Positions 43,857 to 58,737 of a stretch of 64,000 nt of DNA are shown here, in pieces. This DNA comes from Pseudomonas sediminis (lineage in GTDB: Bacteria; Pseudomonadota; Gammaproteobacteria; Pseudomonadales; Pseudomonadaceae): contig NZ_NIQU01000008.1 of NCBI RefSeq assembly GCF_002741105.1, positions 124,001-188,000 on the forward strand, in the 5' to 3' direction. The notes below the pieces were generated by a model, which saw nothing but the letters and a program-made list of their open reading frames with translations, was not told where the DNA came from and searched no databases. Positions within the stretch are counted from its first letter, which is position 1; each line of letters starts with the position of its first letter. Made by a program: the position numbers and the translations under genes.

Positions 43857-45971
43857 TCAGAAGTCGAAATCGACCTTGGCCCAAAGGGTACGACCCGGCT
43901 CGTCGATACGGGTCTCGGCCGGGAAGCCAAAGCCCGCGTCGCCAGCCAGGTTGAGGTGCTCGGCGTAGTTCTTGTCGAGCAGGTTATCCACACCAGCGCT
44001 GAGCTTGACCTGCTTGCTCACGCGGTAGGCACCGTTGAGCGAGAGCACGCCGAAACCGGCGCTGTCACCGAAGTCCTGCCCCACCACGTTGCCACGCCCT
44101 TCGGCGATGCGCCCCTGGCCATCGACCACACGCCACAGGGCGCCGACGCTCCAGTCGTCGCGCTGGTAGGTCAGGCCCAGTCGCGCTTCCAGTGGCGGCA
44201 TCTGCGGCAGCGCTTCACCGTCACTGCTGTTCTTGCCCCAGGCATAGGCCAGGGTCGCGTCGGCCTTCCAGTTGGAATCGAATGCATAGGCCACGCCCAG
44301 CTCGCCACCCATGATGCGCGCGTCGACGTTGTCGGCCTGCGTGCTCATGCCACGGTAGTCGAACAGGATGTAGTCGCGGATCTGCCCGACGTAAGCCGAG
44401 GCCCAGGCCTGCAGCTTGTCGTCCTGGTACTGGATGCCGATATCGAGCTGAGTGGTCTTCTCCGGCTTGATGCCATCGAAGGCGTTGTCCGCGCCGACTG
44501 GGCCATTGAGACCGGCGGAGAACAGCTCCCAGTAATCGGGGAAACGCTGCACGTGGCCGATGCCGGCATAGACGGTGGTCGGCGAGCCGGACAGGTCGTG
44601 CTCGTAGCGCACGAAACCGCTGGGCAAGGTATCGGCACGGGTCTCGCCCGCCGTCGGGTTGGGCGTGGTCATGCCCATCATGTCGCTGAAGTTCTGCCGG
44701 TAGTCCTTGGCCGAAGCGCGATCCAGGCGTGCGCCGGAGATCAGTCGATCACCCTCGGCCAGGCGCCAGGTGGCTTCGGCGAACACGCCGTAGTTGTGCA
44801 TCAGCGCGTCCTTGTCCCAGGGGAAGCGATCAGCGTCGACATAGGGCATGCCCATCATGCCGCCGCTGGAGCTGCGCTGGCGGTGTTCGCTGCGCTGCGC
44901 ATCGACGCCGGTGATCAGCTCGACGTCGTCCCACTTCCAGGTCGCGGCCAGGCGTGCACCGAGGGTGCGACGGTCGACCTGCGCCGCCATCGGCCCGGCC
45001 ATCATGCTGCTTGGGTCCGGCACGCGCAGACGGAAGTTGTCCATGATGTGGTCGGCGTAGTTGTAGTAGACCTTGGCCTCGACCTTATCCAGCACGCCAC
45101 CGAGGTTGCTGCGTTCGATACGCAGGCCGAGGCTTTCGCGCTTGAACTGGGTGCCGTCCATGCCACGGCCGCCATAACGCGCTTCGCCATCGCCACGACC
45201 GGCGCTGAGTTCGATCAGGGTATCGGCATCCGGCGTCCAGCCCAGGGCCACGTCGCCGTTCCACTTGTCCCAGCGCGAGGCGATGGTGTCGCCGTCACCG
45301 TTGTCGTAATCGTCCGACTGCGAGCGGTTGCCCATCACCCGCAGGTAGCCCTGCTCGCTGCCCACGGCGCCATCGATCAAGCGGTCGAAGCGACCATTGG
45401 AGCCCGCCAGCACACTGGCATGCAGGCGCGCGCCCAGTTCGCCGAAATGTTCCGGCTCGCGGTCGAAACGCACCACCCCAGCCGAAGCGCCCGGCCCCCA
45501 GATCACGGTTTGCGGACCCTTGGTGACGGTCAGTAAATCGAAGGTTTCCGGCGCGATGTAAGAACTGGGCGCGTCCATCCGACCGGGGCAGGCGCCGATC
45601 ATCTGCCCGCCATCGGTGAGCAGCAGCAGGCGCGAGCCAAACAGGCCGCGCAATACTGGATCGCTGTTACTGCCACCGCTGCGAATCGCGGAGAAACCGG
45701 GAATGGTCTTGAGGTAGTCGGCCGCATCGCTGGCCGGCACCGGCTGGCGTGGGTCCTTGGGGTCGGCCACCACGGTCAGCGGCGAGCTTTGCTGGATTGC
45801 CGTGATCACCGTGGGCGGCAGTTCGTGCACATGCTCCTCGGCAGCCTGCAAGGCCGTAATGGAACACAGGCCGCAGGCGACGGCGAAGGCATGGCGCCAG
45901 CGCAGGTTGCGGGTGGACAGGGCGAAACGGGACGAAGCGGAGCCGTGGCCCCGGATAGCGAAAACGGACAT
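43857..45971 (-). CDS. oprC: TonB-dependent copper receptor OprC/NosA
   Basis: 704 residues. Plug domain about 60-180, then a 22-strand barrel ending in VDFDF. The plug has the Cys128-x3-Met132 site (GACPGRMD) that binds copper in OprC (family knowledge). Methionine-rich loops (SMMAGPMAA, GMMGMP, MMGMTTP) add further copper ligands. OprC-type receptors import copper across the outer membrane, feeding for example NosZ. Start 45971 with AGG at seven bases; the long N-terminus includes a signal segment ending near 43. A DUF2946 gene ends 71 bases upstream. Confidence 0.92.
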   Translation of the reverse strand: MSVFAIRGHGSASSRFALSTRNLRWRHAFAVACGLCSITALQAAEEHVHELPPTVITAIQQSSPLTVVADPKDPRQPVPASDAADYLKTIPGFSAIRSGGSNSDPVLRGLFGSRLLLLTDGGQMIGACPGRMDAPSSYIAPETFDLLTVTKGPQTVIWGPGASAGVVRFDREPEHFGELGARLHASVLAGSNGRFDRLIDGAVGSEQGYLRVMGNRSQSDDYDNGDGDTIASRWDKWNGDVALGWTPDADTLIELSAGRGDGEARYGGRGMDGTQFKRESLGLRIERSNLGGVLDKVEAKVYYNYADHIMDNFRLRVPDPSSMMAGPMAAQVDRRTLGARLAATWKWDDVELITGVDAQRSEHRQRSSSGGMMGMPYVDADRFPWDKDALMHNYGVFAEATWRLAEGDRLISGARLDRASAKDYRQNFSDMMGMTTPNPTAGETRADTLPSGFVRYEHDLSGSPTTVYAGIGHVQRFPDYWELFSAGLNGPVGADNAFDGIKPEKTTQLDIGIQYQDDKLQAWASAYVGQIRDYILFDYRGMSTQADNVDARIMGGELGVAYAFDSNWKADATLAYAWGKNSSDGEALPQMPPLEARLGLTYQRDDWSVGALWRVVDGQGRIAEGRGNVVGQDFGDSAGFGVLSLNGAYRVSKQVKLSAGVDNLLDKNYAEHLNLAGDAGFGFPAETRIDEPGRTLWAKVDFDF

Positions 45972-46042
45972 GCGAATACCTGAAAGTTGGCAGCTTTTAT
46001 TAGGTGTCGGGCTCGGCTGAGCCCTGGCTGGACGACCAGACT

Positions 46043-46426
46043 TCAGGTACGCGGAGAGGCTCTGGGGTTGAGCGATGGCCACTGAAAGCGGCTACGTGAT
46101 GCGGGGCTGACGCGCGATAGCGGACGTATCGTTTCGCTGGCCAGCAGGCCGAACAACCCGAAGAAGGCTGCCAGGATGATGGCGCTGAAGCTGGAGCTCA
46201 TGGCGCAACCGCCACTGCCGAACAACCCCAACGGCACGACACCGGAGCCGTCGAGATCGGCCCCGGCGCCGAAATTGCCGTCGAAGGAGCAGTACTGCGC
46301 ATCCAGCCCACTGAGCTGCATCCCCGCCATCTGCCCATGACTGATCGCGCAGGCGAGCGCTGCGAACAGGACACTGAAATACAGCATCCAGGCAATCAGT
46401 GGTCGGTGCTGGCGGGATGACTTCAT
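46043..46426 (-). CDS. DUF2946 protein 1, CruR-like leader of oprC
   Basis: 127 residues. An N-terminal hydrophobic helix (about 11-28) leads to CAISHGQMAGMQLSGLD (Cys26, His30, Met33, Met36), then Cys46, Cys74 and a second helix (about 80-95). It ends SLNPRASPRT. The NPRASP motif (120-125) resembles the C-terminal RAPP arrest motif of Bordetella CruR, a DUF2946 uORF product that senses copper (family knowledge). Unlike CruR it has no CXXC. No strong SD precedes the ATG. It ends 71 bases before oprC, so I infer leader-peptide control of oprC. It is a close paralogue of the DUF2946 protein at 58351-58737. Confidence 0.75.
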   Translation of the reverse strand: MKSSRQHRPLIAWMLYFSVLFAALACAISHGQMAGMQLSGLDAQYCSFDGNFGAGADLDGSGVVPLGLFGSGGCAMSSSFSAIILAAFFGLFGLLASETIRPLSRVSPASRSRFQWPSLNPRASPRT

Positions 46427-46502
46427 GGGCAGTAACTGTAGCAGTCGTGCGAGCCTCGTCGATCTGCGACTCAGCGCCGCATAAACCTGGGTGGCGGGAG
46501 GG

Positions 46503-46793
46503 TTACTTGGCCATCCAGGTAATCACGGCCTGGTAGTCCTCAGCCGAGCAATCCATGCACAGGCCGCGCGGTGGCATGGCGTTGAAGCCCTCAGTGACAT
46601 GCTTGACCAGCGTCTCCATGCCCTGTGCCTTACGCGCTTCCCAAGCCGCGGCATCGCCTTTCTTCGGCGCGGTGGGTAGCTGGCCGTTGTGGCACATGCC
46701 ACAGGAACGGTTGAACACGGCCTCAGGGTCCTGCGCGGCATTGGCCGCAGCTGCCAGGCCGAGGGTAAAGGCAAGCAGAGCGAGTTTGTTCAT
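46503..46793 (-). CDS. Periplasmic c5-like cytochrome c
   Basis: 96 residues: signal peptide (LALLAFTLGLAAAANAA, cut near 20), heme site CGMCH (31-35) and distal Met73 in FNAMPPRG. A further CMDC (79-82) near the C-terminus is typical of cytochrome c5-like proteins, where it forms a disulfide. It can carry electrons in the periplasm. It lies upstream of DUF2946-1/oprC with a 76-base gap, so co-transcription is likely. Confidence 0.85.
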   Translation of the reverse strand: MNKLALLAFTLGLAAAANAAQDPEAVFNRSCGMCHNGQLPTAPKKGDAAAWEARKAQGMETLVKHVTEGFNAMPPRGLCMDCSAEDYQAVITWMAK

Positions 46794-46911
46794 GGTTCAA
46801 GCCTCATCGGTTGCTACTGTTGTTCTTGTCAGCGACGGTCTCGTGCGCCAGGCGCAAAAAAGCGGGCCCTCCCTTGCGGGAGAGCCGGCCACCGAACACC
46901 GTCGATAAAGT

Positions 46912-46966
46912 GGACTTCGGGCTTAATCGTGGATGCCCAGACAAGACATATTCCAACCCGAAGTCC
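46912..46966. promoter_or_regulatory. Inverted repeat GGACTTCGGG ... CCCGAAGTCC
   Basis: A perfect 10-base inverted repeat with a 35-base loop, about 120 bases upstream of the cytochrome c ATG. It may be an operator for the cytochrome c-oprC transcript or an RNA stem in its leader. Confidence 0.35.
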
Positions 46967-47000
46967 GCACATGCTATGGGGCTATCCCTGCCCTCTCAAC

Positions 47001-47075
47001 TGCGACAAGCCGCCACAGAGCGCCCAGGAAACCCGTGCTCATGGCGCCCTACGACAGGTGTGGCGGTTTGTCGCA
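47001..47075 (-). terminator. Inverted repeat TGCGACAAGCCGCCACA, 17-base arms
   Basis: Arms 47001-47017 and 47059-47075 match at 16 of 17 positions around a 41-base loop. It begins six bases past the stop of the unknown 182-residue gene, so it may end that transcript. No T-tract. Confidence 0.4.
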
Positions 47076-47081
47076 GAATTA

Positions 47082-47630
47082 TCATTCCGGTATGCGCAAC
47101 CAACGGCGGAAACCGCCCACGCCAGAGCGGCTCAACGGTGACCAGGCAAAGTCGTAACGGGCCGGCGGCAGCACCTGAATGTCTTCGTCCTGGGCGGCAT
47201 CCTGGTTCTTCCAATCGACCAATGTCAGCGGGCGCGCACTGCAGGCGAGCAGGATGCCCTGAGCGGAACTGGCATCGCTGGTCACCCAGCGCGCCGCAGC
47301 AGCCGAGAGCAGGCTCTCCACTTGCTCGGAGGTGACCCGCGGCGCGTATTCCGAGAGCAGCAGCCAGCGGCAAACGCTGATATGAAAAGTCCAGTCCTGC
47401 GCGGGCTGGCGACGATAGGCCCAGATCATGAAGCTGCGAAACAGCTCCACGCCTTCAGGCGGGTCGAGTTTGAGCAGCGACGGGCACAGGTCGTACAGCA
47501 GGTGCCAATACGGCAGCAGCTTGGCATCCAGCGCGATGAACGAGCGCGCGTTACTCGGGTAGTCGGGAAACAAGGTTTCGCCGATGGCACGGCGCACCGG
47601 CGGCATCGCCTTGAGTCGATATGAACGCAT
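47082..47630 (-). CDS. Unknown protein downstream of a DUF2946 gene
   Basis: 182 residues with no family that I recognise. There is no signal peptide. It has helix-rich segments with aromatic residues (YWHLLYDLCPSLLKL, ELFRSFMIWAYRRQP, HISVCRWLLLSEYA), Cys residues at several sites and a basic C-terminus (FRRWLRIPE). I start at ATG 47630, which has GGAG at nine bases; the frame is open to 47675. It lies 75 bases after a DUF2946 gene with RAPP, the position normally held by the copper-regulated target. It may therefore be a cytosolic member of the copper response (inference). Confidence 0.6.
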   Translation of the reverse strand: MRSYRLKAMPPVRRAIGETLFPDYPSNARSFIALDAKLLPYWHLLYDLCPSLLKLDPPEGVELFRSFMIWAYRRQPAQDWTFHISVCRWLLLSEYAPRVTSEQVESLLSAAAARWVTSDASSAQGILLACSARPLTLVDWKNQDAAQDEDIQVLPPARYDFAWSPLSRSGVGGFRRWLRIPE

Positions 47631-47705
47631 GGGTTCATGCTCCTGATCCGGTTCAGCCTCGGCACTGCGAGGCACAAGAAGCTCGGCGAGCTTCGTTCGC
47701 GGTGA

Positions 47706-48077
47706 TCAGGCAATAACAGGTGGCGCTCGTGACTGCGATGCGGGGAAACGCAATTGCAGTATGGGCTGACGCCGCAATAGCGGCGGTACAGCCTGTACCA
47801 CGGAGATGTCGAAACGGCCCCAGTCCTGGCAGCCCAGCGCAGGGCTGTTGATGAGCAGTGAGCAGTAGGCGCAGGCATCCAGCGAAAAACGCTGCGGTGC
47901 ATCGACCGGCGCGCTGCTGCTCTTCTCGTTGCCATCGTGGCAGGCCAGCTCGGCCAGCCACGACCAATCGCTGCTGTCGGCGCGCAGTTGCGAGAACAGT
48001 GGCGCAAAGGCGATCAGGACGAATGCCAGCAGCCCGAGCTGGGCGCCAAGCAGTCGCCTGCCGGCGCTCATCCGCAT
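47706..48077 (-). CDS. DUF2946 protein 2, canonical CruR-like (CXXC and RAPP)
   Basis: About 123 residues. A hydrophobic N-terminal helix (LLGAQLGLLAFVLIAFAPLF), Cys46-His47, the metal-type motif CAYC (69-72) within DACAYCSLL, and the C-terminal RAPP (117-120) three residues before the stop. These are the two elements that in Bordetella CruR sense copper and arrest translation (family knowledge). The start is uncertain: ATG 48077, ATG 48071 or GTG 48089, none with a clear SD. It follows TBDR 2 by 42 bases and precedes the unknown 182-residue gene by 75 bases. Confidence 0.78.
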   Translation of the reverse strand: MRMSAGRRLLGAQLGLLAFVLIAFAPLFSQLRADSSDWSWLAELACHDGNEKSSSAPVDAPQRFSLDACAYCSLLINSPALGCQDWGRFDISVVQAVPPLLRRQPILQLRFPASQSRAPPVIA

Positions 48078-48119
48078 CAGCGCCAGCACCGCAGCAGCAG
48101 GCTCATGCCAGAAACTCCG

Positions 48120-50171
48120 TTACCACTGAAACTGGACGCCGGCATACAGCGCGCGTCCGGTGCCCGGGTTGTACAGTTCCGAGGCCTCGGTTGCGCTGCC
48201 GGCGATGGCGACGTTGGCGATATAGCGGGTATCGGCCAGGTTGCGCCCCTCCAGGTAGCCCGACCAACCACCGCCGGCCTCGTAGCCGAGCTTGAAGTTG
48301 ATCAGCGTGTAGCGGTCGGTGGTCATCTGGTTGGCGTTGTCGGCGTAGTAGCCGTCCGGCACCCACTCGATGTTCGGTCCGGCGTAGACGCCGCTCGGAT
48401 GCTTGTAGAGCAGCTCGGCACGCACGTGATGCTTCGGCACACCGGGCAGCTCGTTGTTGCCGTAACGCTCGTCGTTATCGAAGAAGAAGTCGCTGTAGGT
48501 ATAGGCCGTGTTGAACCACAGGCTGTCGCCCTGGCTCAGGGACGACCTGAGCAGGGCCAGGCCAAAGCCAAGCTCGAGGCCCTGATGCACGGTGCTGTCG
48601 GCGTTCACCACGCTGCACGGGCTCCAGGGCGCCGTAGTCAGGCATTGCAGTTCGTTGTCGATCTCGGCGCGGTAGAGAGCGATATCCCAGTTGAAATCCT
48701 CGCGCTGGCCACGGCTGCCGACCTCGTAGGTGGTAGCGGTCTGCGCCTGGACCGAGGTGCTGGCTGGCGAGGCGAAGCTGTTGGCGTCATAGGTCGGCAC
48801 CTCTGCACTTCGCGAGACATTGGCGAACACCTGCCAACTGGCATCGACATCCCACAGCACACCAATCTTGGGGCTGAAGTGGTCGTAGCTGCGGCGGCCG
48901 GACTGGTCGCCATCGCTCAGGAAGCGGTCGCGACGATCACGCACCGAATGCTGAAACTGCGCGCCGGCGATCAACGCCAGATCCGAGCGGATGAAGAAGG
49001 AGTTCTCCACATAGGCCGAAGCGTTCTTCGACTTGTCGATGTTGGAGGATGCCAGGTCGCCCTTCACCGCATTGCCCAGATTGAGGTACTGCTTGTTGTC
49101 GATCTTGCCGTTGTGCAGGTTCACACCGGCGATCAGCCGGTTGCGGTAGTCACCGATCATGCCTTCGTCGGTCACGCGCATGAAGCCGCCGTAGTCATAG
49201 ACGTTGTAGTCCAGCCATTGGTAGATCGGGTGCATCACGTGGCGCTGCACGCCGAACACGCCCACATCGAGGAGGGTATCGTCGAAACGAAAGGTGGTCT
49301 TGTTGGCGACTCGCACCGCGTCGATGTTGCGCTGCTGGTCGAGGCGCTCGAACTCGGCACTGGCGCGGCGCGGCGACTTCAAGGCCGCAGCCTTGTCCAC
49401 CTCACCCGGTAGGCGCTGCTTGATCTCGCTGGCACTGAGGTAGAAGCGCGTTTCGACGTCATCCGAAAACCGGTAGCCGACATTGCCGCTCATACGGTTC
49501 TGGCGCCCGTCGCTATGGTCGCGATAACCATCGAAGCGCTGCACCGAGCCGGTCACGAAATAGTCGAACGGCCCGCTGACACCACCGGTGCTGGCCTGGG
49601 ACTTGCGATAGCCGAAGCTGCCAGCATCGATACGTGCGGCGAATGGCGAGGCATCGTGGCCGGTTGGCGTGACAAAATTGATCGCTCCACCCAGAGCGTT
49701 GGCCCCATAGCGCAGAGCATTGGCGCCCTTGTACACCTCGACGTGGCGATAGGCTGTAGGGTCAATCTCGAACAGGTCGACCAAGCCATCGGAGGTGTTG
49801 ATCGGAATCCCGTCCATGTACACGTTGATGCCGCGATTGCCATAGTTGCGCGACAGGCCGGAGCCGCGAATCGACACGCGGGCGTCATCGCCAAAACGTG
49901 GTTGAGCGAACACCCCCGGCACCCAGCCGAGCACATCCTTGATCGTCTGCGCCGGCCCGTTCTTGAACGCAGCATCCTCGACCACCGCAACCGAGCCGGG
50001 CGTACGCTGGATAGCGTGCCTGGCTTGCTCCGTATTGTCGGCCGTCAGCGCGCGCCCTTCGGTTGCGTAGGTGGTGGTGTCCGGCAGCACGACACCCTCG
50101 GACTCCCCATTGGCCCAGGCCAGATTGCAGGCACCGACGAGCAGTACCAGCGCAGTATTTGTTGTTTTCAT
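48120..50171 (-). CDS. TonB-dependent outer-membrane receptor (TBDR 2)
   Basis: 683 residues: signal peptide (ALVLLVGACNLAWA, cut near 21), plug domain (about 50-165; SVAVVEDAAFKNGPAQTIKD, SIRGSGLSRNYGNRGINVYM, NALGGAINFVTPTG) and barrel to the terminal VQFQW. FecA-like in plan. It is clearly paralogous to the receptor at 56186-58231. The ligand is unknown; the context of PCu(A)C and DUF2946 genes suggests copper or a copper chelate rather than iron. A DUF2946 gene ends 68 bases upstream. GGAAG lies nine bases before the ATG. Confidence 0.87.
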   Translation of the reverse strand: MKTTNTALVLLVGACNLAWANGESEGVVLPDTTTYATEGRALTADNTEQARHAIQRTPGSVAVVEDAAFKNGPAQTIKDVLGWVPGVFAQPRFGDDARVSIRGSGLSRNYGNRGINVYMDGIPINTSDGLVDLFEIDPTAYRHVEVYKGANALRYGANALGGAINFVTPTGHDASPFAARIDAGSFGYRKSQASTGGVSGPFDYFVTGSVQRFDGYRDHSDGRQNRMSGNVGYRFSDDVETRFYLSASEIKQRLPGEVDKAAALKSPRRASAEFERLDQQRNIDAVRVANKTTFRFDDTLLDVGVFGVQRHVMHPIYQWLDYNVYDYGGFMRVTDEGMIGDYRNRLIAGVNLHNGKIDNKQYLNLGNAVKGDLASSNIDKSKNASAYVENSFFIRSDLALIAGAQFQHSVRDRRDRFLSDGDQSGRRSYDHFSPKIGVLWDVDASWQVFANVSRSAEVPTYDANSFASPASTSVQAQTATTYEVGSRGQREDFNWDIALYRAEIDNELQCLTTAPWSPCSVVNADSTVHQGLELGFGLALLRSSLSQGDSLWFNTAYTYSDFFFDNDERYGNNELPGVPKHHVRAELLYKHPSGVYAGPNIEWVPDGYYADNANQMTTDRYTLINFKLGYEAGGGWSGYLEGRNLADTRYIANVAIAGSATEASELYNPGTGRALYAGVQFQW

Positions 50172-50239
50172 CAGAAGCGACTTCCACGTAATGGACTACG
50201 TATGCATGCCACGCAGCGCCAAGGCGCGGGCCGGCATGA

Positions 50240-50686
50240 TCAAGCGATTGGAACGCTGGCGAGGAAGTCGTGGGGAGAGGCGCGAGGATTGAGCGCCGAA
50301 CGCACTTGACGCGGCGGCGCTTGCGCCCGGTTGCCGAATGCGCTGGATGGCATCGCAACGGCCGGCAGATACTCCTGCCCCCAGGCGAAGGTATTCAGTG
50401 GCGCGGCGAGTGAGCCCGACGAACACAGTGGGCAACCCAGCTGCATGAACATCGTCTGCGTCGGGCTCTTGTCGCTTGTGGTGCCAACTGATGTATCAGC
50501 GTCGGCACTGCAAAAAATGCTGTCGAGCCCACTCAGGCTCAGGCCACTCATCTGGCCATGGTGCAGGCCGCAGGCGAACAGCCCCAACAGGATGCTCAGC
50601 AGCAGCATCCTGTTGGCAAAGGCCGGTACGAACGCCGCTACCCCAAGACGGGCAGCCAGTGTTCGCTCACCTGCGGTGGCGATCAT
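50240..50686 (-). CDS. DUF2946 protein 3, CruR-like leader of TBDR 2
   Basis: 148 residues. Hydrophobic helix (about 26-40), ACGLHHGQMSGLSLSGLD (Cys39, His42, His43, Met46), Cys59 and a CXXC motif CPLC (85-88). It ends ALNPRASPHDFLASVPIA, so NPRASP lies at 133-138, ten residues before the stop. It therefore combines CXXC with the HGQM site and the R-A-S-P motif. Its ATG overlaps the stop of the PCu(A)C gene (ATGA), so translation is coupled to it. It lies 68 bases before TBDR 2 and probably controls it. Confidence 0.75.
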   Translation of the reverse strand: MIATAGERTLAARLGVAAFVPAFANRMLLLSILLGLFACGLHHGQMSGLSLSGLDSIFCSADADTSVGTTSDKSPTQTMFMQLGCPLCSSGSLAAPLNTFAWGQEYLPAVAMPSSAFGNRAQAPPRQVRSALNPRASPHDFLASVPIA

Positions 50687-51174
50687 CAGTGCTTGTGTTC
50701 GCCGTGATCGGCACCATGGTCATGACCTGCCGGAGCGTCCTTCTGCACTGCGACTTCGACCTCGACCTTGCCGGCCTTTTCGAAAGTCAGGGTCAGCGGG
50801 AAGCGCTCACCGTCCTTGGCCTGCTGCTTCAGGTTGAACAGCATGACGTGATAGCCCATGGGCTCGAACTTCACCTCGCCACCGGCGGGGATGGCCACGT
50901 CCTGCACCTGCTGCATTTTCATCACGCCATCGGCATGCACGTGCTCGTGCAGTTCAGCCTTGCCGGCCACCGGGGTGCTGGCGCTGAGCAGACGATCCGC
51001 TTCGCTGCCCTTGTTGTGGACGACGAAGTAGGCCGCGGCAGTCGGTGCCACCGGCGGCATCTCGCGCGACCACGGGTGGTCGATATGCAGTTGGCCTGCC
51101 TCGTACTCGTGGGCCTGCACCAACAGCGTCGGCAGCAGCAGGGTCAGGCCGAGCAGGGTTTTCTTCAGGGTCAT
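50686..51174 (-). CDS. PCu(A)C periplasmic copper chaperone
   Basis: 162 residues: signal peptide (TLLGLTLLLPTLLVQAH, cut near 21), then the cupredoxin-like domain. The copper site H-x10-M-x21-H-x-M is complete: His76, Met87, His109, Met111. The C-terminal tail HDHGADHGEHKH adds histidines that could bind Cu(II). Such proteins carry Cu(I) in the periplasm, for example to cytochrome oxidase. AAGGAGG lies eight bases before the ATG. It is 32 bases downstream of TBDR 3 and overlaps DUF2946-3. Confidence 0.92.
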   Translation of the reverse strand: MTLKKTLLGLTLLLPTLLVQAHEYEAGQLHIDHPWSREMPPVAPTAAAYFVVHNKGSEADRLLSASTPVAGKAELHEHVHADGVMKMQQVQDVAIPAGGEVKFEPMGYHVMLFNLKQQAKDGERFPLTLTFEKAGKVEVEVAVQKDAPAGHDHGADHGEHKH

Positions 51175-51206
51175 GGGTGTTGCCTCCTTGTGGGAAAACG
51201 AAAACA

Positions 51207-53237
51207 TCAGAAATCCAGGGTCAATCCGGCATACAGGGCGCGGCCGTCACCGGGCGCATGCAGCGAATCCTGAGCACCGTCCGGGTCGTACCACACGTAC
51301 TCGTAATAGCGGTTGGTGACGTTCTTCATCTGCACGTCCACGCTCACCGTTTCGCTGACACGATACTCCGCGCCAAGATTGAGCAAGGTGTAACCGCCAT
51401 ATTGGCCGGTGCTGTTGGTACGCTCCAGATAGTAGTCGCTCTGGCCATTGACCCAGGCGCTGAGCTTGAGCTTGTCGGTGGCCTGGTAGTCAGCCCCCAG
51501 GGCGTAGAGATGATGCGGTACGTGGTCCATCTCCTTGCCCTTGCTGGCCGGCAGGTTGGGGCTCGCCGTGAGTATCTCGGAGAACTGCCGCGAGTAGGAC
51601 AGCCAGATACGCGCCTGATCGTCCGGATACAGGTTGAGTTGCACATCGTGGCCACGGCGCAGGGTTTCACCGACGTTCTCCGAATCGCCTACAGCATCAT
51701 TGAGCTTGCGCTGCACTTCGTCGGTGGCGTGCTGCTCCCAGTACGCCACGCGGCCATCGAGCCAGACCACCGGGTTGAACTTGATACCGGTCTCCCAGCC
51801 TTCGTTTATCGAAGGCTTGAGGTCATCGGCCTGACCAGCCAGCTTGTAGGCGCCGGAGCCGACACCGACCTGGAAGGTGCGCCCCCAGTTGGCGTAGAAA
51901 CTGGCTTCCTTCCAGGGGGAATAGACCACGCTGAATTTCGGCTGGCGAATGTTGCCGTAGTCGTTGGCACGGGCCCGCTCGCCAGTCAGTTCGTTGCGAT
52001 AGCCCCCCTCGATCTGATCGACGCGGTAGGCAGGAATAAACTTGAGGCTCTCCCAAGGCTGAATAACGGCCTGCACATAGACTCCCTTGGTGGTGAGGTC
52101 GAAGGCCTGGTCGCGGATCTTCGCCGTACGCACCTGCTCAGTGGTGCGATAGCGCTCGCTGACCACCTCCTGACGCTGGATATCCGCCCCGCCTTCCAGG
52201 GCGAAGTCATATAGGCCTCGCACATCCGGCCGCCAGGTCAGGCTGCTGATGGCGCCATACTGGTCTTCGTTGTTGAAGCGCTCCTGCTGAGACGAGGTGA
52301 TCCAGTATTTGGTCCAGCGGCGATCCTCAAAGCGGTTGTAGTAGACCTTGCTCGACCAGGCCAGATCCTCGGCGACATCAGTGTCCAGATGCAGGCTGAG
52401 CTGGTCCATGCTGCGCTCGCCTTCATCGAAGGCATTATTGGCGTAGGACTGGCGCGGATCGTCACGGGCATCGTCACGGGTCAGGTAGCCGGCCTCCTTG
52501 GCATCGGCCTCGTAATGCCGGGCAATCAGCCCGGCACGCCAGCCGGCATCGGCGGTGTAGAACCACTTGCCGGCGAAGCTCTGCCGTTCGGCGTCGGCGT
52601 GATCGCGATAGCCGCCGCTCTTTTGGTAAGCGACGAAGTAGTTCTGCGACCAGTTGCTCGTCTCGATGCCTTTGACCAGTTGCAGCTCCTGGGTATCGAA
52701 GCTGCCGCTGCGCATGCGCAGCTTGCCCTCGTTGCCGCCGATGCGGGTATTGATGCTGGCGTTGCCGGCGATGTTATGCAGGCCATAACGTGGATCGTTG
52801 GTGCCGCGCACCACTTCGATGTCTTCGATATCCAGCGGGAAGACCATGTCGATAAATGGCATGTTGCCGTCATTGGTGTTGCTCGGAATGCCGTCGATCA
52901 ACAGCTTCACGGCATTCACCTCGCCTTCGCCGTTGAAGCCGCGGAACGACAGCTTGCCGGAGGTGGTGCCCTGGTTGAACTGAGTGAGCATCACGCCCGG
53001 CACACGGCTGAACAGCTCCCAGCTGTATTGCACGGGTTGTTTTTCCAGCACGTCGCTGCCGACGTAATCCACCGAACTGAGGATGTTGTGGCTGGAAAGC
53101 GGCCCTTTTTCTTCGCCGGTAACGGTCACGGTGCCCAATGCTAGTGTGCTGTCGGCCAGGGCTGGCATTGCCTGCAGAGCAAGCGCCCATAAAACGAACT
53201 GAGCAGTGCCGGCCAGCGGCTTGAAAGTGAATCGCAT
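51207..53237 (-). CDS. TonB-dependent outer-membrane receptor (TBDR 3)
   Basis: 676 residues: signal peptide (FVLWALALQAMPALA, cut near 28), plug (about 45-160; ELFSRVPGVMLTQFNQGTTS, DIEDIEVVRGTNDPRYGLHN) and barrel ending in LTLDF. It belongs to the large iron/metal complex receptor class, but the ligand is unknown. It is less like the other three receptors. Start at 53237 (MRFTFK, GGAA at nine bases); the long open frame up to 53582 overlaps the PepSY gene and has no signal peptide at its start. It lies 98 bases downstream of PepSY A and upstream of the PCu(A)C gene. It is the only receptor here not headed by a DUF2946 gene. Confidence 0.87.
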   Translation of the reverse strand: MRFTFKPLAGTAQFVLWALALQAMPALADSTLALGTVTVTGEEKGPLSSHNILSSVDYVGSDVLEKQPVQYSWELFSRVPGVMLTQFNQGTTSGKLSFRGFNGEGEVNAVKLLIDGIPSNTNDGNMPFIDMVFPLDIEDIEVVRGTNDPRYGLHNIAGNASINTRIGGNEGKLRMRSGSFDTQELQLVKGIETSNWSQNYFVAYQKSGGYRDHADAERQSFAGKWFYTADAGWRAGLIARHYEADAKEAGYLTRDDARDDPRQSYANNAFDEGERSMDQLSLHLDTDVAEDLAWSSKVYYNRFEDRRWTKYWITSSQQERFNNEDQYGAISSLTWRPDVRGLYDFALEGGADIQRQEVVSERYRTTEQVRTAKIRDQAFDLTTKGVYVQAVIQPWESLKFIPAYRVDQIEGGYRNELTGERARANDYGNIRQPKFSVVYSPWKEASFYANWGRTFQVGVGSGAYKLAGQADDLKPSINEGWETGIKFNPVVWLDGRVAYWEQHATDEVQRKLNDAVGDSENVGETLRRGHDVQLNLYPDDQARIWLSYSRQFSEILTASPNLPASKGKEMDHVPHHLYALGADYQATDKLKLSAWVNGQSDYYLERTNSTGQYGGYTLLNLGAEYRVSETVSVDVQMKNVTNRYYEYVWYDPDGAQDSLHAPGDGRALYAGLTLDF

Positions 53238-53335
53238 GTAACTGATTTCCAACGTGTCGCTCGGCATGACGAAGATGCAGCGCCGAGCCGAATGAGTTCT
53301 GGCCTGGCGGAGTAAAACCGCCAGGCATCCATAGG

Positions 53336-54706
53336 TCAGGCAGACGGGGTACTGGGCGCGAATTGCCGCCGCAACAGGCCAACCAGCGCGTCCAGCCCCC
53401 AGACCAGCAGTAGCGAAGCGCCGACCAGCGGGAAGATCACGCCGAGCACGATCATCACGCCGATGGCGGTCTTCCAGCGCGGCAGGTCGTGACGCAGCGG
53501 GGGTACTCCGAAGCGCCCGGCCGGGCGGCGTTTCCACCACAGCACCAGGCCACTGACGGAGCTGAAGATGATCAGCAGGCACACCGCCGCCATCAGCAAC
53601 TGGTTGGCCAGGCCGAACAACTTGCCTTCGTGCAGCATCACTCCGGTTTCCACGGTTTTCGCCACCGGGCCGTAGTCCTTCCAGCGCACGTCGGCGAGCA
53701 CCGCGCCGCTGTATTGGTCGAAGTGCAGCGTGGCGTCGTTACGCGGGTCGTCAGCGAACAACGCGACGGTGTAAACGCCCTGCTCGCCTTTCGGCAGGCT
53801 GATGCTGTAGCCGGGCTGGACACCGCGCTCGGCGGCGCTGTCGACCACATGCTGCAGCAGGCTGGCGGAGGCAGCTGCGGGCTCATGCCCGGCATGGCCT
53901 TGATGCGCGGCATGCGGGTCGGAAGCCGGCAACGGCGTGACTTCCACCGCCCAGGCCACGGTTTGCTGACTGCTGCTGTTGAGGCTACCGGTCAGTTGCC
54001 CGGATTTGGGCACGTCATCCCACATCGCGGCGGGAAAGTGATTCCAGGCACCGGCGAACTGCGCACCCCAGTAGCCCGTCCAGGTCATGCCGGTAAGCAG
54101 CATGAACAGCAGCAATGCGCTGCCCCAGAAACCGGTCACCGCATGCAGGTCGCGCCACCACAGGCGCCCACGCGCGCTCAGGCGTGGCCACAGCACACCC
54201 GCCCCGCCGCTGCCGCGCGGCCACCACAGGTACAGGCCGGACACCACCAGCACGATGCCCCAGCCCGCGGCCAGTTCGATCAGCCGGTCACCAACGGTGC
54301 CGATCAGCAGATCACCGTGCAGCTTGCGTACTACCGCCTGCAGATTCCACAAGGCGTCCTGGGTGCCGAGCAGGCTGCCGCTGTAAGGATCGACGAACAG
54401 GTTCAGCTCCTGGCCGTCCTGATTGATCACGAACTGCGCGCTGCGATCCTGCGCAGCGGGCGGCAGGTATTTACTGACCACTGCCTGCGGATAGACCTCG
54501 CGGACAATGGCCAGTTGTTGATCGGCACTCAGGCGCTGCTCGGCGACCGGCACCTGCATCAGGTCGGCGTACATCCAGGTGTCGAGCTGCGGTTTGAACA
54601 GGTAGATAATCCCGGTGACCGACAGCAGGATCATGAACGGGATGACGAACAGCCCGGCATAGAAGTGCCAGCGCCAAGCCAGGTTGTAGAACGAAACTTT
54701 ATTCAT
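53336..54706 (-). CDS. PepSY-associated TM-helix protein A (putative metal reductase)
   Basis: 456 residues. Hydrophobic segments at about 18-36, 143-162, 190-215, 370-392 and 420-450. The pattern fits the PepSY_TM family, whose members include siderophore/metal reductases of the inner membrane. A conserved His is in RWHFYAGLFVIPFMILLSVTG, HGDLLIG and LHAVTGFWG. A histidine-rich insert (DPHAAHQGHAGHEP, about 263-276) lies in a periplasmic loop and could bind copper. Start 54706 has GGAG at seven bases. It follows PepSY B by 43 bases in the same operon. Confidence 0.83.
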   Translation of the reverse strand: MNKVSFYNLAWRWHFYAGLFVIPFMILLSVTGIIYLFKPQLDTWMYADLMQVPVAEQRLSADQQLAIVREVYPQAVVSKYLPPAAQDRSAQFVINQDGQELNLFVDPYSGSLLGTQDALWNLQAVVRKLHGDLLIGTVGDRLIELAAGWGIVLVVSGLYLWWPRGSGGAGVLWPRLSARGRLWWRDLHAVTGFWGSALLLFMLLTGMTWTGYWGAQFAGAWNHFPAAMWDDVPKSGQLTGSLNSSSQQTVAWAVEVTPLPASDPHAAHQGHAGHEPAAASASLLQHVVDSAAERGVQPGYSISLPKGEQGVYTVALFADDPRNDATLHFDQYSGAVLADVRWKDYGPVAKTVETGVMLHEGKLFGLANQLLMAAVCLLIIFSSVSGLVLWWKRRPAGRFGVPPLRHDLPRWKTAIGVMIVLGVIFPLVGASLLLVWGLDALVGLLRRQFAPSTPSA

Positions 54707-54749
54707 ATTCGGCTCCAGGCACAGCCACACAGGCCGTAGTAGAGAGATT

Positions 54750-56198
54750 TCATCGGTGCTGTCCTCGACGTAGCAGGCTCAGGCCCACCAGCGCCAACAG
54801 CACATGCGCTAATGCGACGATGCCCAGCAGCAGGTGCTTGTAGCCATTGCCCAGGCCTGCGAGAAATTCCCACTTGTGCAGGTAGGCAAAGGTCCAGCCT
54901 TCCGTGCGGTCAGCATCCTGCACGCGGCTGGCCAGGGCACCGTCCAGCGGGTCGATAAACAGCGCGGTGTTGTGCGCATCGGCATAGCTGGCCTTGAACA
55001 CAGGCAAGCGCTTGAAGACGAAGCCGTATTCGTGGTCAAAGCTGTGCTGCAGCGTGAGCGTCTGCGCCTCACCCAACCCCAGAGACTTGGCGTAATGATC
55101 GAGACGCTGCTGGGCATAACGACGTGGCGTGTCATTGCCCAGTTCACGGCCCTGAACATCCAGGTAATGCAGACTTGGCATGCTGGCGAACTGCTGCCCC
55201 TGGGCGCGCCAGATCGGCTTGCCGTCGAGTTCAAGCAGGCTGAGCATGTACAGCTCTTCACCGGCCAGCAGCCAGTCGGCCGCCGGTGCCGTATCCAACT
55301 CGGCCACGTTAAAGCTCGGCACAAAGGGCGCTGGCCAGGGCTGCGCGCCTTGCTTGTGCAACAGGTGCCAGGCACCGCTGCTGGCAAAGCTCAACGTCGC
55401 TAAAGCGAGCCCCAGCCCCCACCAGCCATGCAGCCGCCGGTTGAAGGTACGGGCACGCCGACGGGCGATAAACAGCGCCACACCAAACAGCGTCGCCGAG
55501 ACAATCGAGGCCAGCAGTACCAGCATCAGCACCGGGCGCAACGGGCCCGCCGCATCCAGCCAGCGAAAGCTGTGCATCGTCTGGAAGAACGCGCTGAACC
55601 AAGCCTTGCGCTGATCCACCAGGGTGCCGAGGCGGTCATGGAACAGGTCGACATACAGGCGTAACTGGTCATCACGCTGGGTGTCGACCCGCGCCACCGG
55701 CAGCAGGCGGTTGATAAAGGCGTATTCACTGGTAAAGCGCTCGATGCTGCCGGCATAGGCCAGCGGCTCGTCGCGGCCCAGGTAGTGCCGCGCCAGGCTT
55801 TCGGCATGAGCGCCGGCCAGCTCGACTTCCAGACCACTGCGTGCATGCCAGTAACGCGGCTGTAGCTCGCCAGCCAGACGCACCTGGTAATACGGCTCAC
55901 CGGCCAGCACCAACAGACGCAAGCCCTGCACCTGGGCAACTCCCGCCGCGCCGAGCACCTGCGCGGGACTGCTCAGGTTATCCAGCGGCAACACCTGCTG
56001 CGGTGTGGCCATGGTTTGCGGACGCGGCTGCAGGTAGCCCATCAGCGGGTGCAGCATGCCGCTGCCCGCCCAGCTGAAGATGCCCAGGCAGGCCAGCAGC
56101 GCCAGGCGCTTGTGCCACGGCATCAACCGCAGCAGGCGCTGGCGCCAGGTCAGGCGCGGCAGCTGTTGTGCTTGCAGGGCCGCCGTCAAAGCCTCCAC
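54750..56198 (-). CDS. PepSY-domain membrane protein B
   Basis: 482 residues. Hydrophobic helices at about 30-50, 220-245, 258-278 and 450-475, with large periplasmic parts between. LYVDLFHDRLGTLVDQRKAW and DHYAKSLGL are PepSY-like segments, and FHSFRW-type His residues (TMHSFRWLD) fit heme or metal contacts. The start is GTG at 56198, overlapping the end of TBDR 4 by 13 bases, so translation is coupled; a TTG three codons later is an alternative. A partner of PepSY A, probably in reduction of the metal brought in by TBDR 4 (inference). Confidence 0.75.
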   Translation of the reverse strand: MEALTAALQAQQLPRLTWRQRLLRLMPWHKRLALLACLGIFSWAGSGMLHPLMGYLQPRPQTMATPQQVLPLDNLSSPAQVLGAAGVAQVQGLRLLVLAGEPYYQVRLAGELQPRYWHARSGLEVELAGAHAESLARHYLGRDEPLAYAGSIERFTSEYAFINRLLPVARVDTQRDDQLRLYVDLFHDRLGTLVDQRKAWFSAFFQTMHSFRWLDAAGPLRPVLMLVLLASIVSATLFGVALFIARRRARTFNRRLHGWWGLGLALATLSFASSGAWHLLHKQGAQPWPAPFVPSFNVAELDTAPAADWLLAGEELYMLSLLELDGKPIWRAQGQQFASMPSLHYLDVQGRELGNDTPRRYAQQRLDHYAKSLGLGEAQTLTLQHSFDHEYGFVFKRLPVFKASYADAHNTALFIDPLDGALASRVQDADRTEGWTFAYLHKWEFLAGLGNGYKHLLLGIVALAHVLLALVGLSLLRRGQHR

Positions 56199-58231
56199 TC
56201 CAGGCCGACATACAGGCTCCGGCCATCGCCCGGCATGAACAGCGCAGCATCCTGGCCATTGGCATTGGCGACGACGCCGGTGGTGGCGATGTAGGTCTTG
56301 TCGGAAAGGTTGCGCCCCTCGACAAAGAAGCCCAGCCCCTCACGCGGGCGGTAACCGCCCTTCATGCCCCAAATGGCATAGGACTCGGCATACAACGACT
56401 CGGCATGGTCGGCTGCGTAGTGCACCGGCACCCATTCCAGGGTCGGGCCGACATACCAGCCGCCCTGCTGCCAGAGCACCTCCCCCTTGAGGAACTGACT
56501 CGGTACGCCGGCAATACGGTTGTTCCCGTAGGCGGGATCGTTGTCGAAGCGGAAATCGTTGAGTAGGTACTGCCCACGCAGGACCAGATTGCCCACCTGC
56601 CAGGCGCCGCCAAGTTCGATGCCCTGATGCACGGTGCGATCGGCGTTGGTGGTGACCACCTGAGTCGGGTTGAGCGGATTGACATACCCCAGCAGCTCAT
56701 CGCGGATCTCGCTGCGGTAGACCGCCAGGTCCAGATCCAGATTACCGCGCGTGATGCGCATACCGGCTTCAAGCGTGGTGGCTTTCTGAGCCACGTTCTC
56801 GGTGACGATAGCGCCGCCTGTCAGCTCGCTGAAGGTTGGCGGCTCGTAGCTCTGGCTGAGATTGGTGAAGAACTGCACACCTTCGCCTAGGTCATGGCGC
56901 AGGCCTATCCGGCCGATCCGCGCGCTGTAGCTTTTGGTGAAGGAGTCATCGCGAAAGCCGGTGGGGATGCCGACGAAGTTGAAGCTGCTTTTTAGCTTGT
57001 CATCGACATCGCGCTCGCTGTGCAGCCAGGTCAGGCCACCAATCAATGCCCAGTCCTCGGCCAGCGGGACTTCCAGCTCGGTGAAAGCGTTGAGACTGCG
57101 CGCGGTCTGAACCTGGCGGTCTACCAGATTGCCGCGCTTGCCCGAGACGTTGATGTAGTTCTTCGCCTGGTTGCGTCCCTGCAGTGCCTCGACACCACCG
57201 TTCCAGCGCCAGCCATCCGCGTTCTGCCATTTGTGGGTCAGGCGCACGCCGACATCTTCACTATCGACTTCCAGCACCTGAAAGATCGGGTGCCACAGTG
57301 ATTTCTCGCTGTAGAAGCTCGACAGTTCCAGGCTATGGCCACCGTCCAGTTGCAGGGTGGTGATATTGCCGATGCGGTTGAAGGTGAAGTCGCGCTTGTT
57401 ATCGCCGGTCACTGTGCTCAGCGCAGCCTGCTCAGGGTTACGCCGTAGCTGCGCTTTGGTCAGGCTGCCGGGGATTTCCGAATCGGTTTCCACGTGGCTG
57501 ATATAGAAGCGGGTCGCCAAGCGTTCGTTTATGCGTCCGCCGATATTGGCGAAATAGCGCTGGTTTTCCTGGCGCGAGTGGTCGCGGAAACCGTCCTGGG
57601 AATAATCGGAAAAACTCAGGTAGGCATCCCAATCACCAAAGTCTTCAGCCACCGCGCCGAAGATGCGCTGGTAGTCGAAGCTACCGGCCTCGGTGCGCAG
57701 CTGCACCTTGGGCGCGGTCTTGCCGGTGGGCGTGACGAAGTTGATCGCCCCGCCCAGGTTGGCAGCGCCATAGCGCCAGGCGTTGGCGCCGCGCATGACC
57801 TCAATATGGTCCAGAGCAATCGGTTCGATGGATTGAAAGTCACCACTGCCATCCGCCAGGTTCAGTGGCGCGCCGTCCTGCATCAGCAGGATGCCGCGCT
57901 GGTGGAAGGTGCGCTGCAGGCCCGAACCGCGGATCGACAGACGTGATTCCTCGGCGCCGGAGCGCGACTGGATATACACCCCGGTGGCCTGACTCAGGGC
58001 ATCCTGTGGAGAGCTGGCGCGCCCGGTCTTGTAGGTTTCGGCATCGACGATGCTGGCCCCGCCCGGAATGCGCGCGAACTCTGCACGCTTCTCGGCGATG
58101 CTCGGCGCAGTGGCGTCGCCCTGCTGGCGGCCAACAATGGTGCTGTCTTCCAGTTCGATTTGTGCAGCAAAGGCGGAGCTTGCCCCACTGACAGCGACGG
58201 CCAGCAGGCTGAATACAAATAGTGAACGCAT
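56186..58231 (-). CDS. TonB-dependent outer-membrane receptor (TBDR 4)
   Basis: 681 residues: signal peptide (LFVFSLLAVAVSGASSAFA, cut near 23), plug (about 45-165; IPGGASIVDAETYK, SIRGSGLQRTFHQRGILLM, NLGGAINFVTPTGKT) and barrel ending in VGLEWRL. FecA-like and paralogous to TBDR 2. The operon DUF2946-TBDR-PepSY-PepSY resembles the Bordetella CruR-BfrG operon, which also has a receptor and a PepSY protein (from memory). Start ATG 58231 with GGGGAAG; a TTG at 58243 is unlikely. It lies 119 bases after DUF2946-4. Confidence 0.87.
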   Translation of the reverse strand: MRSLFVFSLLAVAVSGASSAFAAQIELEDSTIVGRQQGDATAPSIAEKRAEFARIPGGASIVDAETYKTGRASSPQDALSQATGVYIQSRSGAEESRLSIRGSGLQRTFHQRGILLMQDGAPLNLADGSGDFQSIEPIALDHIEVMRGANAWRYGAANLGGAINFVTPTGKTAPKVQLRTEAGSFDYQRIFGAVAEDFGDWDAYLSFSDYSQDGFRDHSRQENQRYFANIGGRINERLATRFYISHVETDSEIPGSLTKAQLRRNPEQAALSTVTGDNKRDFTFNRIGNITTLQLDGGHSLELSSFYSEKSLWHPIFQVLEVDSEDVGVRLTHKWQNADGWRWNGGVEALQGRNQAKNYINVSGKRGNLVDRQVQTARSLNAFTELEVPLAEDWALIGGLTWLHSERDVDDKLKSSFNFVGIPTGFRDDSFTKSYSARIGRIGLRHDLGEGVQFFTNLSQSYEPPTFSELTGGAIVTENVAQKATTLEAGMRITRGNLDLDLAVYRSEIRDELLGYVNPLNPTQVVTTNADRTVHQGIELGGAWQVGNLVLRGQYLLNDFRFDNDPAYGNNRIAGVPSQFLKGEVLWQQGGWYVGPTLEWVPVHYAADHAESLYAESYAIWGMKGGYRPREGLGFFVEGRNLSDKTYIATTGVVANANGQDAALFMPGDGRSLYVGLEWRL

Positions 58232-58350
58232 GGACTTCCCCAAATCCGGCTGTCGGGTGCGTGCTATAGATCAGCCATGGACGCACCGACGAGCGCAGTT
58301 TTTATCTGACGAACAATTACGTGCGCGGCCTCAGTGCCGCGTGAGTGAGG

Positions 58351-58737
58351 TCAGACAGATACAGGGGAAGCGCGGGGGTTGGCCGAGGGCCATAAATAAC
58401 GGACAGTTCGCGGGACGAACTGCAAGACAGGGGTGGGGGCACGACTGGGAGCCAGCAAACCCAGCAGCCCGAAGAACGCCGCCAGGATGATGGCGCTGAA
58501 CAGGCTGGCCAAGGCGCAGTTGGCGCCAGTGGCCGGGTTCGGTGCGACGATGCCGGAGCCGTTGAGGTCGGCGCCCGCGCCGAAGTTACCGTCGAACGAG
58601 CAGTACTGGCCGTCCAGACCGCTGAGTTGCATGCCGGCCATCTGGCCGTGACTGATCGCGCAGACGAACGCACTGAACAGGATGCTGAAGTACAGCACCC
58701 AGGCGGTCAGTGAGCGGTCTTTGCGGGCCAGTTTCAT
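58351..58737 (-). CDS. DUF2946 protein 4, CruR-like leader of TBDR 4
   Basis: 128 residues, a close paralogue of DUF2946-1: both have Cys26, His30, Met33, Met36, Cys46 and Cys74 at the same positions, and the GNFGAGADLxGSG stretch. It ends WPSANPRASPVSV, with NPRASP at 120-125 as in protein 1. No CXXC. No strong SD before the ATG at 58737. It heads the operon with TBDR 4 and both PepSY genes. As the first gene of the whole minus-strand cluster, it probably receives the main promoter. Confidence 0.75.
   Translation of the reverse strand: MKLARKDRSLTAWVLYFSILFSAFVCAISHGQMAGMQLSGLDGQYCSFDGNFGAGADLNGSGIVAPNPATGANCALASLFSAIILAAFFGLLGLLAPSRAPTPVLQFVPRTVRYLWPSANPRASPVSV

Follow-up and report, generated by a model that had tools for sequence, protein, structure and literature searches.

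Four DUF2946 genes in a copper-uptake cluster

The 4.88-Mb genome of Pseudomonas sediminis harbors four genes of the DUF2946 family, here called leaders A, B, C and D, within the analysed window, a 64,000-nt stretch of contig NZ_NIQU01000008.1 (assembly GCF_002741105.1). The original prediction had described them as the heads of four transcription segments in a likely copper leader system of the type of CruR (bp2923), the DUF2946 upstream open reading frame (uORF) of cruR-bfrG(crtA)-bp2921 in Bordetella pertussis. All four products exceed the PF11162 cut-off of 23.7 bits (34.7-52.4 bits), and a scan of the whole genome with this profile revealed no DUF2946 genes beyond these four. On the minus strand, where all features of the window described here lie, the leaders end 71 (A), 75 (D), 68 (B) and 119 (C) bases before the ATG codons of the next genes, at positions 45971, 47630, 50171 and 58231, respectively, exactly the distances that had been predicted.

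In order of transcription, the cluster begins with a LysR-type gene (59758-58844), the stop codon of which lies 107 bases upstream of leader C (58351..58737; 128 aa; PF11162, 52.4 bits). Leader C is followed by genes encoding a TonB-dependent receptor (TBDR4, 56186..58231), two PepSY_TM-type membrane proteins (PepSY_TM 1, 54750..56198, PF03929, 33.1 bits; PepSY_TM 2, of the FoxB/CrpH type, 53336..54730, PF03929, 258 bits, and PF03413, 43.8 bits), a further receptor (TBDR3, 51207..53237) and a PCuAC copper chaperone (50686..51207; PF04314, 145.9 bits). The stop codon of the chaperone gene shares one base with the start of leader B (50240..50686; 148 aa; 34.7 bits), which precedes another receptor gene (TBDR2, 48120..50171), and leader D (47706..48089; 127 aa; 41.8 bits) begins 30 bases past TBDR2 and precedes a homologue of the methanobactin enzyme MbnC (47082..47630). 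TBDR2, TBDR3 and TBDR4 match PF00593 and PF07715, with YncD/PqqU as the nearest solved structure for TBDR2 and TBDR4. Some 290 bases downstream of the MbnC homologue lie a gene for a small c-type cytochrome (46503..46793; PF13442, 55.7 bits), leader A (46043..46426; 127 aa; 40.4 bits) and oprC (43857..45971), encoding a TonB-dependent copper receptor (TIGR01778, 944.5 bits against a cut-off of 472; PDB 6fok, OprC).

Only leader C is first in its transcription unit, as A is preceded by the cytochrome c gene and both B and D are operon-internal; the notion that the four leaders head four transcription segments thus held for C alone. The overlap of B with the PCuAC stop codon and the short distance between TBDR2 and D leave little space for promoters of their own, suggesting that C, B and D act in series. 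Upstream of the cytochrome c gene (46793), we observed a sigma-70-like site (46999-46971) and, behind it, a hairpin with a T run that resembles an intrinsic terminator (46886-46865); the upstream operon may end here, or the hairpin may be an additional attenuator.

The gene behind leader D had been listed as an unknown gene, a designation that was rejected on the basis of its matches to TIGR04061 (217 bits) and to the solved MbnC structure 7fc0 (E = 2.4e-26). No MbnB (DUF692) partner for this homologue was found in the cluster, and both DUF692 genes found elsewhere in the genome (contigs C12 and C18) seemingly have adjoining partners of their own. In two of the sampled loci described below (L152 and L189), a related MbnC-like gene lies behind a DUF2946 leader in which CCC replaces the CXXC motif, with an MbnP gene next in L189. 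A close relative (L191, 7619-11778) presents C-type, D-type (with MbnC) and A-type leaders and lacks TBDR4, PepSY_TM 1, TBDR3, leader B and TBDR2; receptor cassettes, each with its own leader, hence seem to be gained and lost.

The C-terminal motif and the sensor region

The four leaders carry an N-terminal hydrophobic segment (export signal), seen in their translations, and end in the motif R-A-(S/P)-P followed by a short tail: SLNPRASP-RT in A, ALNPRASP-HDFLASVPIA in B, SANPRASP-VSV in C and SQSRAPP-VIA in D. The NPRASP codons are AAC CCC AGA GCC TCT CCG in leader A (46052..46069), AAT CCT CGC GCC TCT CCC in leader B (50273..50290) and AAC CCC CGC GCT TCC CCT (AACCCCCGCGCTTCCCCT) in leader C (58363..58380), and SRAPP is encoded at 47718..47732 in leader D. 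To place these sequences in context, we collected about 200 loci, in which a profile built from the four leaders of the window identified 257 distinct DUF2946 proteins (212 after dereplication). DUF2946 genes are present in 118 of the 119 sampled genomes of the genus, with one to seven copies each. The motif was found near the C terminus of 247 of the 257 proteins, as RASP in 151, RAPP in 93 and RSPP in three (RA[SP]P in 244), in a sample drawn by best PF11162 scores and by relationship to A and to B, so that the ratio of RASP to RAPP is not a genus frequency. The ten exceptions include several truncated or frame-shifted open reading frames, and in the dereplicated set the third motif position is Ser or Pro. 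The predicted motifs of all four leaders and the codons described for NPRASP were confirmed; the motif occurs at a frequency beyond chance and did not prove variable in orthologues.

NPRASP and SRAPP constitute two stable classes among the sampled leaders, frequently in the tandem arrangement RASP leader, PCuAC, RAPP leader; in 35 cases a RASP leader is directly followed by PCuAC and another leader. On a leader tree inferred without the motif columns, RASP and RAPP changed into one another at least eight times, which indicates that they are near-interchangeable, and NPRASP, judged from these sequences, persists in Pseudomonas as a stable variant, with changes to and from RAPP. Asn at position -2 is coupled with RASP (122 of 124 leaders, versus 7 of 84), an association with few independent pairs on the tree. 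The few leaders from other families that could be read carry RAPP or RGPP; within the family itself, RASP turned up in one further genus. We rejected the view of RASP leaders as decayed copies, given the conservation of the motif across the sampled leaders and its interconversion with RAPP. Two variants were also recorded. In L184 (916-1290) and L177 (2731-3192), the DUF2946 proteins end at NPRAP or NPPAP, with a stop codon replacing the fourth motif codon; RAP-stop is among the listed ApcA-type uORF motifs (PMC10987492). The leaders of P. alliivorans, P. asturiensis and P. triticifolii (L061, L070 and L072) carry SPRSPP upstream of a TBDR3-like receptor.

Upstream of the motif, a CXXC is present in B (CPLC, with C..HHGQM) and D (CAYC) and absent in A (CAMS, within GGCAMSS) and C (CALA, within NCALAS). 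The spacing between this site, or its equivalent, and the motif is 44 residues in A, C and D and 46 in B, and mostly 44-46 across the sampled leaders; in CruR it is 45 (PMC9426467). The second Cys is absent in 32 of the 212 dereplicated leaders, including A and C, where Ala, Ser, Gly, Thr or Val replaces it. In all 32, the first hydrophobic segment ends in a Cys with H-x-Q behind it (nearly always HGQM), and right after the remaining Cys comes a 19-residue segment of strong hydrophobicity that ends 24-28 residues ahead of the motif; a second hydrophobic segment occurs in a minority of leaders with intact CXXC. On the tree, CXXC loss is nested inside this C-HxQ/membrane-helix class, with two to four changes.

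The loop between the two segments is free of Lys and Arg in 24 of the 32 CXXC-less leaders, and a median of five Lys/Arg residues lie past the second segment. Under the positive-inside rule, this distribution predicts an N-in topology with a periplasmic loop and a cytoplasmic C-terminal part, which would place the conserved Cys, His and Met residues on the periplasmic side. An AlphaFold2 model of leader C (30 alignment rows), of low overall confidence (pLDDT, the predicted local distance difference test, 57), presents a helix at residues 5-38 and no usable metal site. As read from these sequences, the CXXC-less leaders probably sense copper at a periplasmic Cys/His/Met site or via copper-dependent membrane insertion.

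CutF, the leader of the multicopper oxidase gene cutO in Rhodobacter capsulatus, is an exported DUF2946-type sensor with a shielded downstream Shine-Dalgarno (SD) region and a positive copper response (PMC9973294), and leaders A, B and C might likewise respond to periplasmic copper binding with a prolonged pause, with a sign opposite to that of CruR. The predicted periplasm-facing residues and second membrane helix of A and C would suit such a scheme. The genes behind these leaders, however, encode uptake receptors (oprC, TIGR01778), which copper would hardly be expected to induce, and the interconversion of RASP and RAPP also argues against it; we regard this as the least probable of the explanations considered here.

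Leader ends, Shine-Dalgarno pairing and a proposed mechanism

Motif and tail codons show complementarity to the SD region of the gene that follows. In leader C, the Ala-Ser-Pro motif codons form the arm CUUCCCC (58364..58370), matching GGGGAAG (58235..58241) upstream of the TBDR4 start codon, with a pairing energy of -19.6 kcal/mol for the SD region. The arm of leader B, ACGACUUCCUCGC (50259..50271), lies at +7 to +20 from the expected P-site codon and pairs with ACGUGGAAGUCGC (50177..50189) upstream of TBDR2 (-16.3 kcal/mol), that of leader D, CCUGAUC (47704..47710), spans the stop codon and pairs with GAUCAGG (47642..47648) upstream of the MbnC homologue (-12.5 kcal/mol), and that of leader A, CGUACCUGAAGU (46040..46051), comprises the last codons and the stop and pairs with CUUUCAGGUAUU (45975..45986) upstream of oprC (-12.6 kcal/mol). 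A pairing scan along the leaders yielded a single clear peak near their end. Across 77 dereplicated leaders (<70% identical), tails paired better with their own SD than with swapped ones (-11.55 versus -8.74 kcal/mol; z -10.5; 0 of 1000 permutations), as did those of 22 leaders less than 50% identical (-11.83 versus -8.70). The same swapped-partner test had no effect on five other stretches of these leaders, the gap included, and 147 ordinary neighbouring gene pairs showed no own-partner pairing effect (-9.48 versus -9.28). In other genera and families of the class (L212-L227), six of eight leaders pair with their own SD better than with about 89% or more of foreign SDs, a hint that the pairing extends beyond the genus Pseudomonas.

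The motif Ser codon is TCT or TCC in 108 of 121 leaders and AGC or AGT in none, whereas these two codons make up 49% of the Ser codons elsewhere in these leaders; TCT alone accounts for 40% of motif Ser codons versus 3.4% of the others. The differing codon choice among the copies had been taken as a sign of selection on the peptide and not on the DNA. The peptide motif is indeed conserved, but the Ser codon bias and the SD complementarity of the same bases point to selection on the RNA as well as on the peptide. In folding calculations, placing a simulated ribosome on the motif raised mean SD accessibility from 0.17 to 0.36, with A, B and C reaching 0.21-0.34 from starting values of about 0.001-0.002; a stall simulated 60 bases upstream of the motif left accessibility unchanged.

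Pairing of this kind could also reflect constitutive translational coupling, in which passing or terminating ribosomes open the stem and maintain a fixed receptor-to-leader ratio with neither arrest nor copper sensing. Stems near the stop codon in most leaders and gaps of about 45-200 bases would accommodate it. The anti-SD arm, however, keeps a position of 0 to +24 relative to the third motif (P-site) codon in leaders with short, middle and long tails, and in the long-tailed ones it tracks the RA[SP]P codons and not the stop; the peptide motif, moreover, is almost invariant while other columns vary, and the neighbours are copper-related. Constitutive coupling alone is, in our judgement, very unlikely.

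The leader ends are also enriched in C over G. Computed over 78 bases at a time, the excess of C over G reaches its maximum at the 3' end in each of the four window leaders; this C>G bubble lies above all 11,696 control windows in A, B and C and at the 99.3rd percentile in D. Among the sampled leaders, C>G is greater at the 3' end than in the upstream half in 243 of 247 and above that of synonymous recoding in 203 of 247. An Rfam scan (E <= 1) returned chance matches only, indicating that no known riboswitch is involved. For CruR, Rho-dependent termination has been published, and relief of the arrest by copper has been shown or argued (PMC9426467). The window leaders could thus be plain copies of CruR, relying solely on Rho-dependent termination as in Bordetella, with the SD complementarity playing no regulatory role. 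This mechanism is experimentally shown (PMC9426467), and the C>G bubbles of the window and of the wider sample agree with it, but it leaves unexplained a complementarity that is specific and anchored to the arrest site, with none elsewhere in the leaders or in ordinary gene pairs, and the extreme Ser codon bias at the motif. We consider it unlikely, though the strongest of the alternatives.

The SD complementarity of the arrest codons instead suggests that a switch like those of SecM and CutF has been added to Rho termination. We propose, as the probable explanation, that the four genes encode leader peptides of the DUF2946/CruR family, translated from uORFs, which gate copper-uptake genes after transcription has started through arrest-controlled SD release combined with shielding from Rho. 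At low copper, the ribosome would arrest at R-A-(S/P)-P shortly ahead of the leader end, covering motif and tail codons that otherwise pair with the next SD; the next start site would thereby be freed, the C-rich 3' end shielded from Rho, and the operon expressed. With copper, the nascent leader would relieve the arrest, the ribosome would depart, the start site would close, and Rho would terminate transcription in the untranslated C-rich stretch. Leaders C, B and D would operate in series within one operon, so that later genes would need several arrests, while A would gate oprC behind the cytochrome gene. The observations carrying this proposal are family membership, motif conservation, spacing, the C>G bubble, specific base complementarity and the nested loss of CXXC; from them we infer arrest at RASP, copper as the signal, the sign of the response and the use of Rho.

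Independent observations bear on parts of this scheme. CruR arrests ribosomes in vitro with Pro in the P- and A-site (PMC12992588), a SecM homologue from Mannheimia arrests with RGSP, and RASP is listed among SecM-type uORF motifs (PMC10987492); SD shielding has been published for CutF (PMC9973294). In P. aeruginosa exposed to N-acetylcysteine, the DUF2946 gene PA0433 is up 0.7 (listed value) and the receptor gene PA0434 behind it up 1.7 (PMC9431628), a difference that fits a leader uncoupling the two, under a stimulus that is mainly zinc chelation.

Several results weigh against the proposed mechanism. Arrest at RASP is plausible but unproven, and in ApdP a Ser at the third position abolishes arrest, with Gly alone partly working (PMC12992588). 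Roy et al. dispute translational coupling across the 162-bp gap in Bordetella (PMC9426467). The C>G bubble follows in part from the proline codons, and compared with synonymous recoding it falls below in D (z -1.2) and barely above in B (z 0.35). In the folding test, the SD behind leader D was not released (0.38 to 0.36). Of five groups with a fixed register, four (the P. putida type, two RAPP groups and PCuAC leaders) had pair-by-pair covariation no higher than shuffles; in the remaining ten-member CXXC-less group, double changes were rarer in shuffles (31 of 1000). The case for pairing consequently rests on the comparison between diverged leaders and groups. RNAalifold on whole gaps recovered no consensus fold, because the gaps do not align.

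More tentatively, leaders A and C and their orthologues could be membrane-anchored copper arrest peptides in which a periplasmic Cys/His/Met/Cys site replaces the cytoplasmic CXXC, the second helix lets the pull of membrane insertion report copper, the RASP codons double as an anti-Shine-Dalgarno, and serial leaders give a graded copper response along one operon; we regard this fuller scheme as possible rather than probable.

Comparison with known leader systems

The system appears to be a variant of CruR: the motif is RASP in three leaders, two leaders lack CXXC and would be anchored in the membrane, several leaders lie in series, and the arrest codons contain an anti-Shine-Dalgarno. No description of these features in Pseudomonas was found in the papers searched, a search that covered neither subscription papers nor preprints, nor was the mechanism of Pseudomonas leaders found worked out in that literature. 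If the proposed mechanism is true, a large genus would control its copper uptake, relatives of the P. aeruginosa receptors OprC and CrtA included, largely after transcription begins. A possible reason for RASP would be that TCT/TCC-CCN codons preserve Arg-Ala-x-Pro while acting as anti-Shine-Dalgarno, and the CXXC-less class raises the question of how and where copper is sensed.

The predicted resemblance to CruR held in part. The window leaders share with CruR the Pfam family, the spacing of the motifs (44 or 46 residues), a 3' C>G bubble resembling the Rho site of CruR, and downstream copper-uptake genes encoding TonB receptors and PepSY_TM proteins; D has both CXXC and RAPP, and B has CXXC. 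In contrast to CruR, leaders A, B and C end in RASP and not RAPP, and A and C lack the CXXC that CruR needs and have a second membrane helix. The window leaders, furthermore, are serial, their gaps measure 68-119 versus 162 bases, and their SD regions are complementary to the arrest codons; while CruR is the first gene of its operon, only C heads a copper-related operon.

The P. aeruginosa loci of CrtA/OptJ (PA0434) and OprC likewise encode copper-responsive TonB receptors, and PA0433, preceding PA0434, is annotated as DUF2946 (PMC9431628); these loci differ from the present one in having been described as receptors. SecM and its homologues (RAGP; RGSP in Mannheimia) resemble the window leaders as proposed in that a ribosome arrested close to the end of an exported leader exposes the start site of the gene behind it, and in the small residue at the third motif position, as in RASP. 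SecM, however, monitors secretion, controls secA and has no copper ligands, and no sequence relationship to the window leaders has been shown.

CutF is likewise a DUF2946-type exported leader, with a downstream SD enclosed in a stem expected to open when the ribosome slows, a likeness seen here in silico and weakest for D. It differs in switching on a detoxification gene with copper, whereas the window leaders would gate uptake genes, in having CXXXC and a proline-rich end that lacks RA[SP]P, and in a stem described between genes, whereas the 5' arm in the window consists of motif and tail codons. CruR and CutF, the two studied DUF2946 leaders, have been described with different modes, Rho termination and start-site opening, and with opposite signs; the Pseudomonas leaders bear signatures of both and may offer a common scheme.

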